64,000 nucleotides of DNA from Roseivirga thermotolerans (lineage in GTDB: Bacteria; Bacteroidota; Bacteroidia; Cytophagales; Cyclobacteriaceae). The notes under the pieces are model-generated. The model was given only the letters and a program-made list of their open reading frames with translations. It ran no database searches and was not told the DNA's origin. Position 1 is the stretch's first letter, and each line of letters begins with the position of its first letter. Below are positions 46,321 through 51,538 of this stretch, piece after piece. The position numbers were made by a program, and so were the translations under genes. The stretch lies in contig NZ_BNAG01000005.1 in assembly GCF_014653175.1 (NCBI RefSeq), positions 1 through 64,000 on the forward strand. Direction: 5' to 3'.

Positions 46321-46875
46321 CTAAAGGTCTTCGGCCAGGGTAAACACAACGGTGAGCGAGTAAACTCCCGGTCTATATCCCATACCGGGAGTTAATTTAT
46401 AGTCAATTCGGAAACGGTGGGTAAAAGGATCGTTTGAGCCATCACCAGGCGCATTGGTGCCTACTCCGGAGTTTACCCGAGCATCATCGGCTGCCGAACC
46501 TATTAAGTAAACCGGGTTAGATACATCCTGTAACTGAAAGAAGGTATTTTGCTGAGAAGTTCCACCCGGGCTAACTGCCCTTATTTCTAAAATTGAGACT
46601 GGTACTGTAGAGGAACCTGCACTGGAGTATGAGGTGAGCAAATCCCACTGACCGGGTGTGGTAGTTTGGGTGCCTACATACAAATCCCACTCGGCAGTAG
46701 ACTCAATTCTAAACTCTGTGGCGTTGGGACGAATAATACCATTGGTGTATTGACGTATGGTATTAAAGGTAAAATCGATATCGGTACCTCTTGTAATAGA
46801 AATGTCCAGGGTCTGGGCAAAACAATAAGAGGCAATTAGGTGAAAAACAATCAGAAAGGTTACCCTTCTGCTCAT
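46321..46875 (-). CDS. Secreted pilin-like protein B
   Basis: A 184-residue exported protein with a signal peptide (MSRRVTFLIVFHLIASYCFAQ). It is clearly a paralogue of the neighbouring protein at 47000. Shared features are FTFNTI-x-Y-NGII-PN-TE-R-EST--WDLYV, then SSAG-ST, then F-RIDY, and the identical C-terminal heptapeptide FTLAEDL (YTLAEDL in the other). The beta-rich fold and the ending G-Y-L-V-TLAED recall pilin or WxL domains. ATG 46875 is chosen over 46917 to open the signal peptide. It lies downstream of a terminator, so it is probably made at a lower level than A. I infer that it is a surface fibre subunit. Confidence 0.65.
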   Translation of the reverse strand: MSRRVTFLIVFHLIASYCFAQTLDISITRGTDIDFTFNTIRQYTNGIIRPNATEFRIESTAEWDLYVGTQTTTPGQWDLLTSYSSAGSSTVPVSILEIRAVSPGGTSQQNTFFQLQDVSNPVYLIGSAADDARVNSGVGTNAPGDGSNDPFTHRFRIDYKLTPGMGYRPGVYSLTVVFTLAEDL

Positions 46876-46902
46876 ATACAAAAATATGGAATAAAGTAAT
46901 AC

Positions 46903-46933
46903 AAAAAGAGGTAACATGAACTGTTACCCCTTT
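46903..46933 (-). terminator. Terminator between the two pilin-like genes
   Basis: GGTAACA (46910-46916) and TGTTACC (46922-46928) form a 7-bp stem with a 5-base loop, followed on the minus strand by TCTTTTTG. It sits after pilin-like gene A and 28 bases before gene B, and could reduce B expression relative to A. Confidence 0.7.
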
Positions 46934-46999
46934 TACCAATCAACATAAATCGAACTAACTTATTTACTACGTCTTAGTAAAACTGTATTTCTTAATTTC

Positions 47000-47593
47000 T
47001 TAAAGGTCTTCTGCCAAAGTGTAGATCACGTTCAAACCATAGTAACCAGCCTGATATTGTGCTGTCAGAGTAGGGATAATTCTGTAGTCTACTCTGAAGA
47101 AGTGAGTATCAGGAGTTGTTAGGTAAGAACCAGCAGCAATACCGTCACCGGCAGCTACAGTACCTACAATGTCCAAGCGAGTATCTGTCAAAGAAGTAAA
47201 GTTGTTCAAAGCAGAGTTTCCGGCACCATCTATAATTCTTACCTCTAACAAAGTAGAAGGAATTGTTGAAGTACCTGCGCTTGAGAATGCCTGCAACTGA
47301 GACCAGTTAGCAGTTTCGGCCTGTACGTAAAGATCCCAAGGCACAGTAGACTCAACACGAAGTTCAGTTACGTTTGGCTTGATGATACCGTTTACGTAGC
47401 TAGGAATGGTATTAAAGGTGAATTCTACGTTAGGGTCTGTAGCCAGCGTAAGGTCCAAAACACCTTGCAAGTCCATAGCTACATACACGAATTCATTGTC
47501 GTCTGGTAAAACCTGAGCATTTGCCTGGTTTCCGAGAGCTAAGGCAAAAACTGCCGCTACGACAAATGCCTTAAAGTTTACTAATCTTTTCAT
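47000..47593 (-). CDS. Secreted pilin-like protein A
   Basis: A 197-residue exported protein with a signal peptide (MKRLVNFKAFVVAAVFALALGNQANA). The mature chain is strand-rich and starts with DDNEFVYVAMDL. It carries the repeat-like motifs shared with its paralogue (EFTFNTIPSYVNGIIKPN, WDLYVQAETANW, SSAGTSTIP) and ends AGYYGLNVIYTLAEDL. The conserved end would suit a donor-strand or C-terminal assembly signal. No sortase or type IX sorting domain is present. It sits downstream of a chaperone-like and a barrel gene in the same direction. I infer a surface fibre or coat subunit. Confidence 0.65.
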   Translation of the reverse strand: MKRLVNFKAFVVAAVFALALGNQANAQVLPDDNEFVYVAMDLQGVLDLTLATDPNVEFTFNTIPSYVNGIIKPNVTELRVESTVPWDLYVQAETANWSQLQAFSSAGTSTIPSTLLEVRIIDGAGNSALNNFTSLTDTRLDIVGTVAAGDGIAAGSYLTTPDTHFFRVDYRIIPTLTAQYQAGYYGLNVIYTLAEDL

Positions 47594-47627
47594 GAGTATT
47601 AATGTTTAGGTTAAAAGTTTAGACATG

Positions 47628-47663
47628 TGAATATATGGACTTATATTCATATATACAAATATT
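47628..47663 (-). promoter_or_regulatory. Promoter-like box and hairpin in the pilin A leader
   Basis: The minus strand reads AATATTTG at 47663-47656, one mismatch from TAnnTTTG. A perfect 8-bp inverted repeat TGAATATA/TATATTCA lies at 47628-47635 and 47642-47649, just inside the expected transcript start. It would give pilin A its own promoter, with a leader hairpin that may stabilise the message. Confidence 0.4.
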
Positions 47664-47691
47664 CCTCAAAAATTTCTCAACTTTTTTTACC

Positions 47692-47708
47692 GCTTCGGCA
47701 AGCGAAGC
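47692..47708. repeat. Hairpin between chaperone-like and pilin A genes
   Basis: GCTTCG (47692-47697) and CGAAGC (47703-47708) form a 6-bp stem. The T run lies on the wrong side for the minus strand, so it is not a standard terminator for the chaperone-like gene. Confidence 0.35.
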
Positions 47709-47747
47709 CGTAGAGTTCTGCCATGTGAGAGCTTTGAGGGTGCCCAT

Positions 47748-48581
47748 CTATTCTTTACTTTTTTCTTTAATTTCTATTTCAATTTCTGCGGCTGCCACTT
47801 CATCCCTATTGCCATAATCCAACACACCCAAAACAGAATACCTGCCCGGAGGATAATCTTTAGGAATAATAAATGTGACATCGCGATTGCTAGCGGGTAG
47901 TACCGTAAAGTTGCGTGGTTTAAGGCGCGTTATCTCACCCGTTTGCAGGTTGGTAAACTCCGCATAAGAATTGCATTTGAGAAAAGTCTCTCCCACATTT
48001 CTTAGTCGAAGCACCAATTGGTCTTCTTGCTGAGTAAAGTCGATCAACTCTCCTTTAGCGAAAACAGCATTTGGAGGAGTTTGGAAAATGTACACCCCAA
48101 AACGATAGGCCTGGTTTAGGTTAACGATTAGCCCATCGCTGTTTTCCTGAGTCGATTGTTTTTCTTCACTCAACCGGATGTAGGCCACTGCCCATCGTGC
48201 AACCAATGCACTGGAATCTTGTGGCACGTCCATCACTACTCTGATTTGCTGCGATTCTCCCGGATCTAATTCAAAAAGTGCGGGAGTCGCGCTCAACCAA
48301 TCTGCACAAGAGCGAGGCAAGGTTCCTTTTTCCATGAACTTACTCTTACCCGCACGTGAAGCATCAAAGTCTCCAAAATCTACAGTAAAGGTTTGTCTAC
48401 GGTCGGCATTGTTGGTCACAGTTATAAGTCCTGTTGATGACCCACCAGGGCTAACCTTGTAGTTCAACCTTGTCGGAGAAGTGGAGATTTTCTGACCGAA
48501 AGCATCAAAAAATGTAAGGCAAAGCAGCATTACTACCAGCGCTGCCCACCGCGTTCGACTGTGTTGATAAAATGATCTCAT
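47748..48581 (-). CDS. PapD/DUF916-like periplasmic chaperone
   Basis: A 277-residue exported protein with a signal peptide ending near FFDAFGQ. Two Ig-like domains follow, as in PapD-type chaperones. Domain 1 contains STSPTRLNYKVSPGGSSTG and then TVTNNADRRQTFTVDF, the characteristic edge strand. Domain 2 contains LVLRLRNVGETFLKCNSYAEF and VLPASNRDVTFIIPKDYPPG. The same features appear in DUF916 (WxIP) proteins. The cysteine pair seen in some PapD proteins is not obvious. The last residues are charged (EIEIEIKEKSKE). An ATG at 48581 is chosen over the in-frame TTG at 48605, giving an 11-base gap after the barrel gene, so the two are one unit. I infer that it guides the pilin-like subunits to the barrel. 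Confidence 0.65.
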   Translation of the reverse strand: MRSFYQHSRTRWAALVVMLLCLTFFDAFGQKISTSPTRLNYKVSPGGSSTGLITVTNNADRRQTFTVDFGDFDASRAGKSKFMEKGTLPRSCADWLSATPALFELDPGESQQIRVVMDVPQDSSALVARWAVAYIRLSEEKQSTQENSDGLIVNLNQAYRFGVYIFQTPPNAVFAKGELIDFTQQEDQLVLRLRNVGETFLKCNSYAEFTNLQTGEITRLKPRNFTVLPASNRDVTFIIPKDYPPGRYSVLGVLDYGNRDEVAAAEIEIEIKEKSKE

Positions 48582-48591
48582 ATGTTGATTG

Positions 48592-51507
48592 TTAGTTGTT
48601 GTCAAATCGTTTAATGTTCAGTTGCCTTCTTTTCTCAATGAGGTAAAAGGCCAGCTGGTAATTTCCTCCTAAGTTGTTGATGTCTAAAGTGTAACTAGAC
48701 TGGGCAAACTCAAACTGGCTATCTACCGCCTGCTCATTCACCTTAATAGTATATTGGCCAAAAGGCACATAAAGCCTAAAGCTACCTTGCAAATCGGTTA
48801 GTGTAGAGTAGCTTTCGCCAGTAGCATCTGTAGCCGTTACCCGAATGCCGTTAAGCTTCATTCCTCCCTCACCTAGTGCCGAGTACTGTGCTTTTTGCAG
48901 AATGATATTCCCCATTATCTGCACTCCTCGCTTCAGGGGTATGTACACTGCCTGACTGGAGTTTACATCTACCTCCACGCCTTTAGATTTGAACCAGCCC
49001 TCTGAATTGGTCAGCAACTCAGTCTCTACAAAATATTTCCCTTCCGGCAGGTTTCTAAAGTAAACCACACCATCCTGGTTTGTCATAAGCGCCTGCCCGT
49101 TTACTCTTACAATCACATTTCGCTCAAACTCTTCCCCCTGGTCTCTCAGGTTGTTTCCATTTAAGTCTTTAAATACCACCACCTCAAGGTCATGTGCTTT
49201 TTTGCCCGGCTTTTTCAGGTTGAATTGTTTTTTTATTCCAAAGCGAAGAAATGCATTGGACTGGCTGAACGGGTTAAATGCCTGAGTGCCAAACTCAGAA
49301 ACATTGGCCAGTGGGCTTTCTCCTTGTTTGATACTGAAATATTCAACCGTCATATTAAACTCCAGGCCGCTCTTCGAGAAGTAAGTGACTTGCGGTGCCA
49401 TATTGGCTCTCCACCGGGCCAAAACTGACTCATAGGCCATAGTGAACATGGGACGAACAGAAATTCGTGCCTTTGTAAAATTTAGCTGAGCAAAAGCACT
49501 CAAAAACAAGGATTGTGGATTTATGCCATCTTCCACAACCCTTAGGTTGTCCAGCACATTAAAGGGGCCATAATAATAGCGGGCCGAAACGTTGAGGTTT
49601 TTATAACGCAAAGTGTTTTCCCAGCGAGACACCAGATATGGCTTCATGTTATAGTCGAGTGCTTTGGTAAAGCCAGAAAAGAAACGGGTAAACAAGCGGG
49701 CATCTGAACTTTTGTTGGTGCTAAAGCTTAATCCCATACCGGTGGTCGATGTTCTAAGGTCCAACACTTCCTCATAGGTATAGCGCGGATATACCATAAA
49801 ATTGCCGTTCTCTGTGGCCCAACCATACTGCCCTTCAAAGGTATTGCGCACAAATTCTCTTCTGGGAAACAGAATACCCTTGCTGTATATCTCAGGGTTA
49901 CGGCTGTTCATATTCACTCGTAAGCCCACATAAGTAGTTTCTCCCAAATTATACCTGGCATTGGTATTGAAATCTACAGAACCCCTGAACTGCGAGGAAT
50001 AGTTGGGGCTGTTGTACCGCCCTTGCGCAGAAAGACTAACGCCCTGTATTCTTCCGGTGTAGCGAGCCGTAGCCCCAAAACCCGGCACAGAGAAGGTTCC
50101 GCTGGCCCCCTCATGCAGTTCTGTAGAGTACCCTACTTTAACATCCACAATGCTCTGGTTGGGTAAGCGATAGTTTGCCCTGAGTGTAGCAAGGTTGCGG
50201 TTTACCTGGTTGAACTGATCGTCTTGATTTACCAATTCGGCCGTGGCATTGAGCCCTTGAAAAACTCTGTACCGAACTGATGCTCCCATGCTATTCAGGT
50301 TGTTCTGCACATTGCCGTTTTGTGGCCGGGTAACATAAATGGCCGAAACACCCACCTTATCGAAATAGTAGGAGCCTTTTACACCAGTTCCATTAAGCAA
50401 CAGCTCCATGTTCTGCCCTATGTCTCCGGCAGATACAGAATATTTAGGTGTGCGATATTCAGCAAATCGATAGGAGCCTAAAAACTGGGTTCCGGCAAGG
50501 CTATTGCTGGATATGATGGTCTGATAATAATAGCGAAGGAAGCGATCTTCTCCAAGATCGGCTTCCCCGCTAAGATCCAGACTGAAATTCGTGAACTGCG
50601 ACAACACATTGTAAGTGTTGAACTCCAGGTTGATTGGAATGGTGGATGAACCATACGCTGTTTTAAACTTGTGTTCCTGATTTAGCTTCTTGAAATCTAC
50701 TCTTCCGCCCCAGCTTGCACGGTTACCCGCTACATCTTTTACCTGAATATTGACCTTATACTCAGACTGATCGGTCTGCTCAGAATCTATGGCTCCTGCC
50801 GTGAAGAAATTCTCTTTTTTGGCCTCTTCGTCCAACTGAGCAGTAAAGGTAAGGGTGGTATCAATATCAACCGGGAGCTTAAGCGGTAGCGAATTGTCTG
50901 CAAAAGGATTTCCCTGCATGTCCAGAATTTTCACCTTCACATCCGGATTGAACAGAATCATCACATCTTCTGCAGAGTTGCCATTGTTCTTTAAGTTCAC
51001 CTGGAATTGTGCCTCCTTTTTATCGGCCGGAAAAAACACCTCCGACTTTACGATTGAAGCGAACCAACGCGACACTTTTACCACTTGCATAGACCAGGGC
51101 GTGGAAGCCAACGGAATTCCGTTGGTGGTAAGTGCAGTAGCATTAATAAAGTAATTTACATTGCCTGTAGCCGATTTTTCAGGCACCACCCGAATGGGGA
51201 TGAAGAGACTGTCGTTGTTAGCTACGTTATAAACTTGGTCTTCAGCCCTTACGCGAGACCAATTAGGTGGAGTAGCAATTTCTATTTTAAATACTGAGGT
51301 ACGACCTGTTCTGTTCACCACCTTGAGCACATTGGAGGCTACTTCATCAACAGAACCGCTTGTTTGGGATTTTAAGAACTGTAAAGTGAGACCACTCGCT
51401 GTTCTCTCTTGGGCTACGACACTTGTCTGAAGCATTAATAAGAGCATACAGCTAGCGCATACCACAAAGGAGAGAAATCTCCTATATCTGGGATTACACG
51501 TAGTCAA
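48592..51507 (-). CDS. Large usher-like outer-membrane barrel protein
   Basis: A 971-residue exported protein that I cannot match to a named family. After a signal peptide (ending near TSVVAQ) there are two Ig/NEW3-like domains (about 35-260). They resemble the chaperone-like partner, with FKIEIATPPNWSRV and NLKNNGNSAEDVMILF. Residues about 270-770 show alternating aromatic/polar strands (YRYYYQTII, ARYNLGETTYVGLRV), as in an outer-membrane barrel of some 20 or more strands. The end has SdrD/Cna-B-like domains (VVVFKDLNGNNLRDQGEEF and PEGKYFVETE). No usher plug motif is certain. The start is TTG at 51507; the nearest ATG is inside the signal peptide. An exact -7 box lies 32 bases upstream. 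Confidence 0.65.
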   Translation of the reverse strand: MTTCNPRYRRFLSFVVCASCMLLLMLQTSVVAQERTASGLTLQFLKSQTSGSVDEVASNVLKVVNRTGRTSVFKIEIATPPNWSRVRAEDQVYNVANNDSLFIPIRVVPEKSATGNVNYFINATALTTNGIPLASTPWSMQVVKVSRWFASIVKSEVFFPADKKEAQFQVNLKNNGNSAEDVMILFNPDVKVKILDMQGNPFADNSLPLKLPVDIDTTLTFTAQLDEEAKKENFFTAGAIDSEQTDQSEYKVNIQVKDVAGNRASWGGRVDFKKLNQEHKFKTAYGSSTIPINLEFNTYNVLSQFTNFSLDLSGEADLGEDRFLRYYYQTIISSNSLAGTQFLGSYRFAEYRTPKYSVSAGDIGQNMELLLNGTGVKGSYYFDKVGVSAIYVTRPQNGNVQNNLNSMGASVRYRVFQGLNATAELVNQDDQFNQVNRNLATLRANYRLPNQSIVDVKVGYSTELHEGASGTFSVPGFGATARYTGRIQGVSLSAQGRYNSPNYSSQFRGSVDFNTNARYNLGETTYVGLRVNMNSRNPEIYSKGILFPRREFVRNTFEGQYGWATENGNFMVYPRYTYEEVLDLRTSTTGMGLSFSTNKSSDARLFTRFFSGFTKALDYNMKPYLVSRWENTLRYKNLNVSARYYYGPFNVLDNLRVVEDGINPQSLFLSAFAQLNFTKARISVRPMFTMAYESVLARWRANMAPQVTYFSKSGLEFNMTVEYFSIKQGESPLANVSEFGTQAFNPFSQSNAFLRFGIKKQFNLKKPGKKAHDLEVVVFKDLNGNNLRDQGEEFERNVIVRVNGQALMTNQDGVVYFRNLPEGKYFVETELLTNSEGWFKSKGVEVDVNSSQAVYIPLKRGVQIMGNIILQKAQYSALGEGGMKLNGIRVTATDATGESYSTLTDLQGSFRLYVPFGQYTIKVNEQAVDSQFEFAQSSYTLDINNLGGNYQLAFYLIEKRRQLNIKRFDNN

Positions 51508-51538
51508 AATAAGTTAGTTCTTACGGTGTTAGGTATTT

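Follow-up and report, generated by a model that had tools for sequence, protein, structure and literature searches.

What do four adjacent genes at positions 46321-51507 of the Roseivirga thermotolerans contig NZ_BNAG01000005.1 make? They lie on the minus strand of the stretch that we analysed (positions 1 to 64,000 of the contig, called the window here at its full length of 64,000 nucleotides), and are read in the order of a putative outer-membrane barrel protein, a periplasmic chaperone, and two small secreted proteins, pilA and pilB. A preliminary description of the window had placed four such genes in a row on one strand, and all four open reading frames (ORFs) were recovered at its minus-strand coordinates. 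We put the probability at roughly 0.77 that these genes build a surface fibre, with the chaperone handing subunits to an outer-membrane pore for donor-strand assembly. This working mode, a chaperone and an outer-membrane platform with strand exchange, is already known. In the tests made here, neither the platform nor the subunits belong to the known chaperone-usher families, and the chaperone links two superfamilies.

The preliminary description, which read the block as a chaperone-usher-like system, had named beforehand the absence of a conserved neighbourhood as a point that could refute it. We observed that the order barrel-chaperone-pilA-pilB was kept in 14/14 Roseivirga genomes whose barrel gene is full-length, so the block is not due to chance. 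The genus alignments (A1-A3) hold 11-12 of these 14 loci. The kept neighbourhood, the superfamily of the chaperone and the 16-chain homologues of the pilins together support the chaperone-usher-like reading.

The two small proteins had been described as paralogues, and this was confirmed (46% identity over 153 residues, E 1.6e-34); they are the genome's only two matches at E<=1. They had also been said to end in the same LAEDL-containing heptapeptide. The LAEDL end is indeed common to both, but the identity extends over six residues (TLAEDL), the seventh (position -7) being F or Y. A profile of 42 pilins (A6, made of 34 of the 70 pilin matches in the class and 8 rows from the genus, with fused and very divergent proteins left out) matched nearly the whole chain of the PDB entries 9ikk (TLP-2, E 5.2e-37) and 9ikj (TLP-1, E 2.3e-35). 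The name TLP stands for the CryoSeek filaments from the Tsinghua Lotus Pond. Each entry has 16 chains, and the A6 match starts at chain residue 4, inside the N-terminal extension.

A comparable extension follows the signal peptide of PilA. It is alternating-hydrophobic, VYVAMDLQ here and VTITMDLQ in many others, and PilB does not have it. The motif was found in exactly one of the two pilins at 19/21 loci; at the remaining two the long pilin does carry the extension, with one substitution (L093) or past the searched region, after a long ORF start (L112). The strict motif occurs in 18/72 pilin-like proteins of the class. At L099, L105 and L106, from three genomes of a single genus, two pilin domains are fused in the second pilin; the first domain lacks the extension and the linker to the second resembles it (by regular expression in 2/3, by eye in L105). 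These fusions would fit a covalent form of the donor-strand order expected with an extension-less domain at the tip. The confinement of the extension to PilA and the fused domains both fit a donor-strand fibre that has PilB as its tip. Three loci (L126, L128, L129) encode a 477- or 478-residue protein with a partial pilin match near its C-terminus (E 1.4e-6 to 1.1e-3), which might resemble a two-domain tip adhesin, and L128 has three tandem 181-residue pilin genes. PilA is probably the major subunit: a conserved leader of its own precedes the gene and a terminator-like hairpin comes after it, and both would fit PilA being made in excess over PilB.

The chaperone was compared as a profile (A4, without the chaperone gene of L125, which is split in two). 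A4 matched EfmWxLIP1 in the PDB over positions 38-260, covering both domains (E 2.5e-5). Aligned with six Lactobacillales WxLIPs in hhalign (six of seven regions, L191 being left out), it gave 97.8% (P 1.2e-12, 250 columns), and 60 column shuffles stayed at or below 3.0%. Alignment with 11 PapD-family chaperones of E. coli K-12 gave 95% (P 3.9e-8, score 60.5, 202 columns spanning both domains); 60 shuffles scored at most 20.7 (<=1.3%), and at most 18.5 (<=0.7%) in a repeat. By these profile comparisons the chaperone is a WxLIP/PapD-superfamily protein, which bears out the PapD/DUF916-like chaperone described earlier. Among individual proteins, WxLIP_PGBD was found at E<=0.1 in 31/42 chaperones, the window protein itself not being one of them, and Pfam PapD_N at the same threshold in 11/42, with the window protein below the cut-off. 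In the FimC alignment, the chaperone stretch SDGLIVNLNQAYRFGVYIF sits over FimC ENTLQLAIISRIKLYYRP, the donor G1 strand of FimC. PMC10599100 describes AlphaFold2 predictions in which a WxLIP strand completes its WxL partner.

The 971-residue protein consists of a signal peptide, an Ig-like N-terminal region (~34-285), a middle region (~285-765), two prealbumin/CnaB-like domains (~770-950) and a conserved C-tail. The SdrD/Cna-B-like C-terminal domains claimed for it were seen, with SpaA above the Pfam cut-off and SdrD_B and CarboxypepD_reg below theirs; barrel homologues end in SdrD_B, SpaA and CarboxypepD_reg-like domains. The Ig-like N-terminus claimed alongside them is one that we infer; this region resembles the system's own chaperone (hhalign 91%). 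Usher barrels on one side and K-12 chaperones and pilins on the other served to train a composition score, which gave +0.053 for residues 285-765 (sd 0.025, n=41), the two ends scoring -0.081 and -0.079. The usher reference values were +0.092 for the barrels, which are the training set itself, and -0.105 and -0.090 for the ends. Because of the domain architecture and this barrel-like composition, the middle region is likely to be a transmembrane barrel. The protein has the domain order of an usher, and its role may be equivalent.

A number of results weigh against a chaperone-usher-like fibre. Among 41 barrels there was no Usher match and no match to any Pfam outer-membrane barrel family; PF00577 was found in 0/12 system-bearing genomes, with a positive E. 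coli control; and hhalign of the barrel with ushers gave 9.9%, the reversed control giving 4.0%. A classical usher was thereby ruled out as the identity of the barrel. The composition test is imperfect, since TonB-type barrels score just +0.006, and a count of strand alternation did not separate the barrel from Ig regions. Searched singly, neither the window barrel nor the window chaperone had a credible PDB match. Most Pfam matches of the chaperones fall in families of a generic Ig-like type (fn3_5 in 32/42, Cep192_D6 in 30/42), and A4 reaches 30% over 37 columns even with K-12 pilins, so an Ig-like background exists. The anchor residues Arg8 and Lys112 are defining for the chaperones of chaperone-usher systems. 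These PapD anchors are not conserved here, with Arg in 15/42 at the R8 position and Lys in 6/42 at K112 of the FimC alignment. Comparison with FimC gave just 7.5% for the WxLIPs (hhalign) and 1.1% for two Deinococcus chaperones. Profile comparison did not link the pilins to those of K-12 (7%), which ruled them out as K-12-type fimbrial subunits, and the 477-478-residue proteins match pilins just partly and weakly. Finally, no fibre on a Roseivirga cell was found in the material examined.

Two other readings of the operon were weighed against these data. The WxLIP homologue may bind and display PilA and PilB as a WxL-like surface adhesin complex that is not polymeric, in the manner of Gram-positive WxL clusters, the barrel protein serving only to export or anchor it. 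The homology of the chaperone agrees with this, and the pilins keep one W-x-L (W86, L88), and their last strand, GxYxxxVxYxL, is reminiscent of how WxL proteins end. However, the likeness of the pilins to divergent WxL domains is one of motif alone (hhalign 0.4-3.1%, not significant; 60 WxL shuffle controls, 59 of them scored in the repeat), and they were rejected as such. The related TLP-1/TLP-2 entered the PDB as assemblies of 16 chains, and polymerisation agrees with the extension, with the fused domains and with the tandem pilin genes of L128; we consider an adhesin complex unlikely. The 971-residue protein could also be a periplasmic or surface scaffold without a pore, with the pilins crossing the outer membrane in some other way. 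It has no sequence link to ushers or known outer-membrane barrels, and the strand-alternation count does not discriminate, but its barrel-like composition at 285-765 lies between globular-like ends, as in ushers, and it accompanies the chaperone in most of the stretches described below. We regard a scaffold as similarly unlikely.

The fibre that we favour would be assembled as follows. All four proteins, which have predicted signal peptides, would be exported by Sec. In the periplasm the WxLIP/PapD-superfamily chaperone would lend a strand to the incomplete Ig-like pilins and deliver them to the outer-membrane barrel, where the Ig-like N-terminal region and the two prealbumin-like C-terminal domains are placed like the N- and C-terminal domains of an usher and may act like them. 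The extension-less PilB would begin the fibre at its tip. PilA subunits would be added next, the VxVxMxL extension of each entering the groove of the preceding subunit by donor-strand exchange. An element in the 3' region of pilA could pair with the translation start of the barrel gene, and so might tune the platform to the amount of pilin.

How does this compare with known systems? The pilins are homologous to TLP-1/TLP-2, the N-terminal extension included, but the PDB match covers the subunit only. Gram-positive WxL/WxLIP systems likewise have a homologous two-domain WxLIP protein adjoining small secreted beta proteins, whereas an outer-membrane barrel candidate is added here. With chaperone-usher pili (FimC/FimD/FimA, and the archaic Csu) the locus has in common a PapD-superfamily chaperone, one pilin with an N-terminal extension, and an outer-membrane protein (a candidate here) made of an N-terminal region, a middle and two C-terminal beta domains. 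It differs in that the barrel is unrelated to Usher PF00577 and the pilins lie outside the fimbrial Pfam families. Type V (Mfa/Fim) fimbriae have strand-based assembly; unlike them, this system has a dedicated chaperone and a barrel candidate. None of the 42 pilins had a fimbrial, Mfa/FimA or WxL Pfam match, or a lipobox-like motif in its first 40 residues. Pfam and hhalign thus agreed with the earlier statement that no piece matches the classical FimD or Mfa/Fim families. PMC5789003 places Mfa1 among the fimbriae of Bacteroidota, which is also the phylum of our host. Ten distant pilin-like or neighbour proteins gave nothing against Pfam at E<=0.1, NCBIfam held nothing relevant for pilins or barrels, and no paper on such a Bacteroidota operon was found in the open-licence literature. 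If the fibre is real, the operon supplies an assembly pathway for a subunit family found in the PDB only as the 16-chain TLP-1/TLP-2; one chaperone family would join the Gram-positive WxLIPs to PapD of Proteobacteria, and the question would arise whether the outer-membrane usher evolved twice.

We also examined the near-invariant 50-nt element between pilA and pilB. Its 26-nt core is identical in 14/14 genus genomes with the system and occurs as a single copy in each; the 50-nt pattern is exact in 11/14, with one or two bases deleted in L023, L024 and L025. By contrast, the longest invariant run in the pilA coding region (11 species) is 8 nt, and 15/194 third codon positions are invariant. The element matched no Rfam entry and no known RNA family. 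Covariation in its hairpin is weak, with two-sided changes in 3/23 predicted pairs of the whole element, and the same three are also broken.

In 11/14 loci, 12-14 nt of the element are complementary to the start-codon region of the barrel leader. When the leader was shuffled, at most 1/500 shuffles gave as good a duplex in 9/14 loci; the counts out of 500 in the others were 4 (L030), 8 (L021), 36 (L023), 41 (L024) and 95 (L025). At 13/14 loci the start of the barrel gene is the top-ranked of all the gene starts there (fourth of 12 in L025). The loci are related, so these tests are not independent. The pairing is bulged and extends into further short blocks, reaching a total of -32.8 kcal/mol in the window. 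Outside the genus it is not general among the 24 class loci tested (L109, with too short a gap, was excluded), where just L108, L122 and L124 had low counts (out of 200 simple shuffles, 1, 1 and 4 did as well). The complementarity suggests RNA control, and the element with its hairpin (46904-46981) is a candidate for a small RNA derived from the 3' untranslated region, or for long-range mRNA pairing with 51495-51536. If so, it offers a directly testable case of RNA control from pilin to platform. The barrel start codon as called (51507, minus) is TTG in 10/14 and GTG in 4/14 genus loci, and 8/12 aligned barrel proteins begin with MTT; RNA pairing might explain both. In E. coli K-12 a small RNA, FimR2, is annotated between fimA and fimI, a parallel in position only.

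The two sites may instead work at the DNA level, as sites for a regulator or a recombinase, or independently of each other. They are inversely oriented on the genome, the clade of L023, L024 and L025 keeps the core of the element despite weak pairing with the leader, and the pairing, as said, is not general outside the genus. Against this, the complementarity is bulged and continues in short blocks, and a terminator-like hairpin follows the element. We hold such a function to be a serious possibility, though less likely than not.

To see how far the system extends, 59 genomes were searched for the barrel. It was matched in 15/19 genus genomes (full-length in 14, truncated in one), in 0/18 other members of the family and in 0/22 other members of the order. 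In the genome with the truncated gene (G017, L031), only this remnant is left. Another genome of the genus (G015, L185) has no barrel match and no pilin or chaperone within the 15 kb examined, and keeps a decayed element with three changes in the core. With genus profiles at E<=0.001, the chaperone was found in 44/295 and the barrel in 51/295 Bacteroidia genomes, source genome included; six of the 51 were weaker than 1e-10 and are probably single-domain matches. Forty stretches were fetched around chaperone or barrel matches, of which 32 hold both and 30 hold the chaperone, the barrel and at least one pilin. The ten lacking at least one kind of component are L100, L107, L115, L116, L118, L119, L121, L122, L130 and L132, and of these L115 and L116 overlap and jointly contain all three kinds. 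In the class, the genes most often follow one another on one strand as chaperone, pilin, pilin, barrel; some stretches (L114, L117, L120, L123, L124) have the chaperone on the opposite strand. Related clusters therefore recur in other Bacteroidia families. Across 395 genomes of the phylum, a diverse barrel profile matched 13 at E<=1e-10 (in G352 and G647 just over short parts) and the pilin profile matched 4, source genome included; the pilin profile under-detects, as the barrel count in the same genomes indicates.

The chaperone was also found on three Deinococcus plasmid records. Two of these plasmids were examined, and beside the chaperone (E 1.8e-30 and 9.2e-32 against A4) they encode an SdrD_B protein of 1058 or 1018 residues, a 291-residue protein and one of 175 or 189 residues, all annotated as hypothetical. 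The large proteins gave 97.8% in hhalign against the barrel profile (A5, which omits one barrel fragment, from L115), and the small ones showed no link to A6. The divergent-type barrel had no match among the plasmids, and the viral contigs searched gave no match. From these data we propose, tentatively and at a little under even odds, a separate donor-strand pilus lineage common to Bacteroidota and Deinococcota, with a WxLIP/PapD-superfamily chaperone and a platform of an evolutionary origin independent of ushers, in which, in Roseivirga, an RNA element of the major pilin transcript would pair with the platform start codon and set the ratio of the two.

The features are collected in Table 1. 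Comparison with relatives indicates that the true starts of pilB and of the chaperone gene are probably the internal ATG codons given there.

Table 1. Features of the four-gene locus in the window, and related clusters on two Deinococcus plasmids.
Feature	Position	Strand	Basis
Barrel gene, usher-like assembly platform candidate, 971 residues	48592..51507	-	Domain matches; N-terminal likeness to own chaperone; composition of 285-765
Periplasmic two-domain Ig chaperone, WxLIP/PapD superfamily, ORF of 285 residues; likely ATG start 48581 (277 residues)	47748..48605	-	Profile comparison
pilA, probable major pilin, 197 residues; N-terminal extension VYVAMDLQ after signal peptide	47000..47593	-	
pilB, probable tip or minor pilin without extension, ORF of 198 residues; likely ATG start 46869	46321..46917	-	
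Near-invariant 50-nt element between pilA and pilB, RNA-regulator candidate	46932..46981	-	No Rfam match
Terminator-like hairpin after the 50-nt element, 13 pairs then U-rich tail	46904..46934	-	
Barrel-gene leader and start codon region, complementary to the 50-nt element	51495..51536	-	
Conserved pilA leader, probable promoter and 5' untranslated region	47594..47665	-	Conservation only
Deinococcus plasmid clusters	L187 6898-12644; L188 6951-12553		Matched chaperone and large protein

After pilB comes a gene for an M42-type peptidase. In a record named as a Klebsiella pneumoniae plasmid (CP069367.1), we observed a stretch at 101785-102462 that is 73% identical to an Enterococcus WxLIP; the record is perhaps mislabelled or contaminated.

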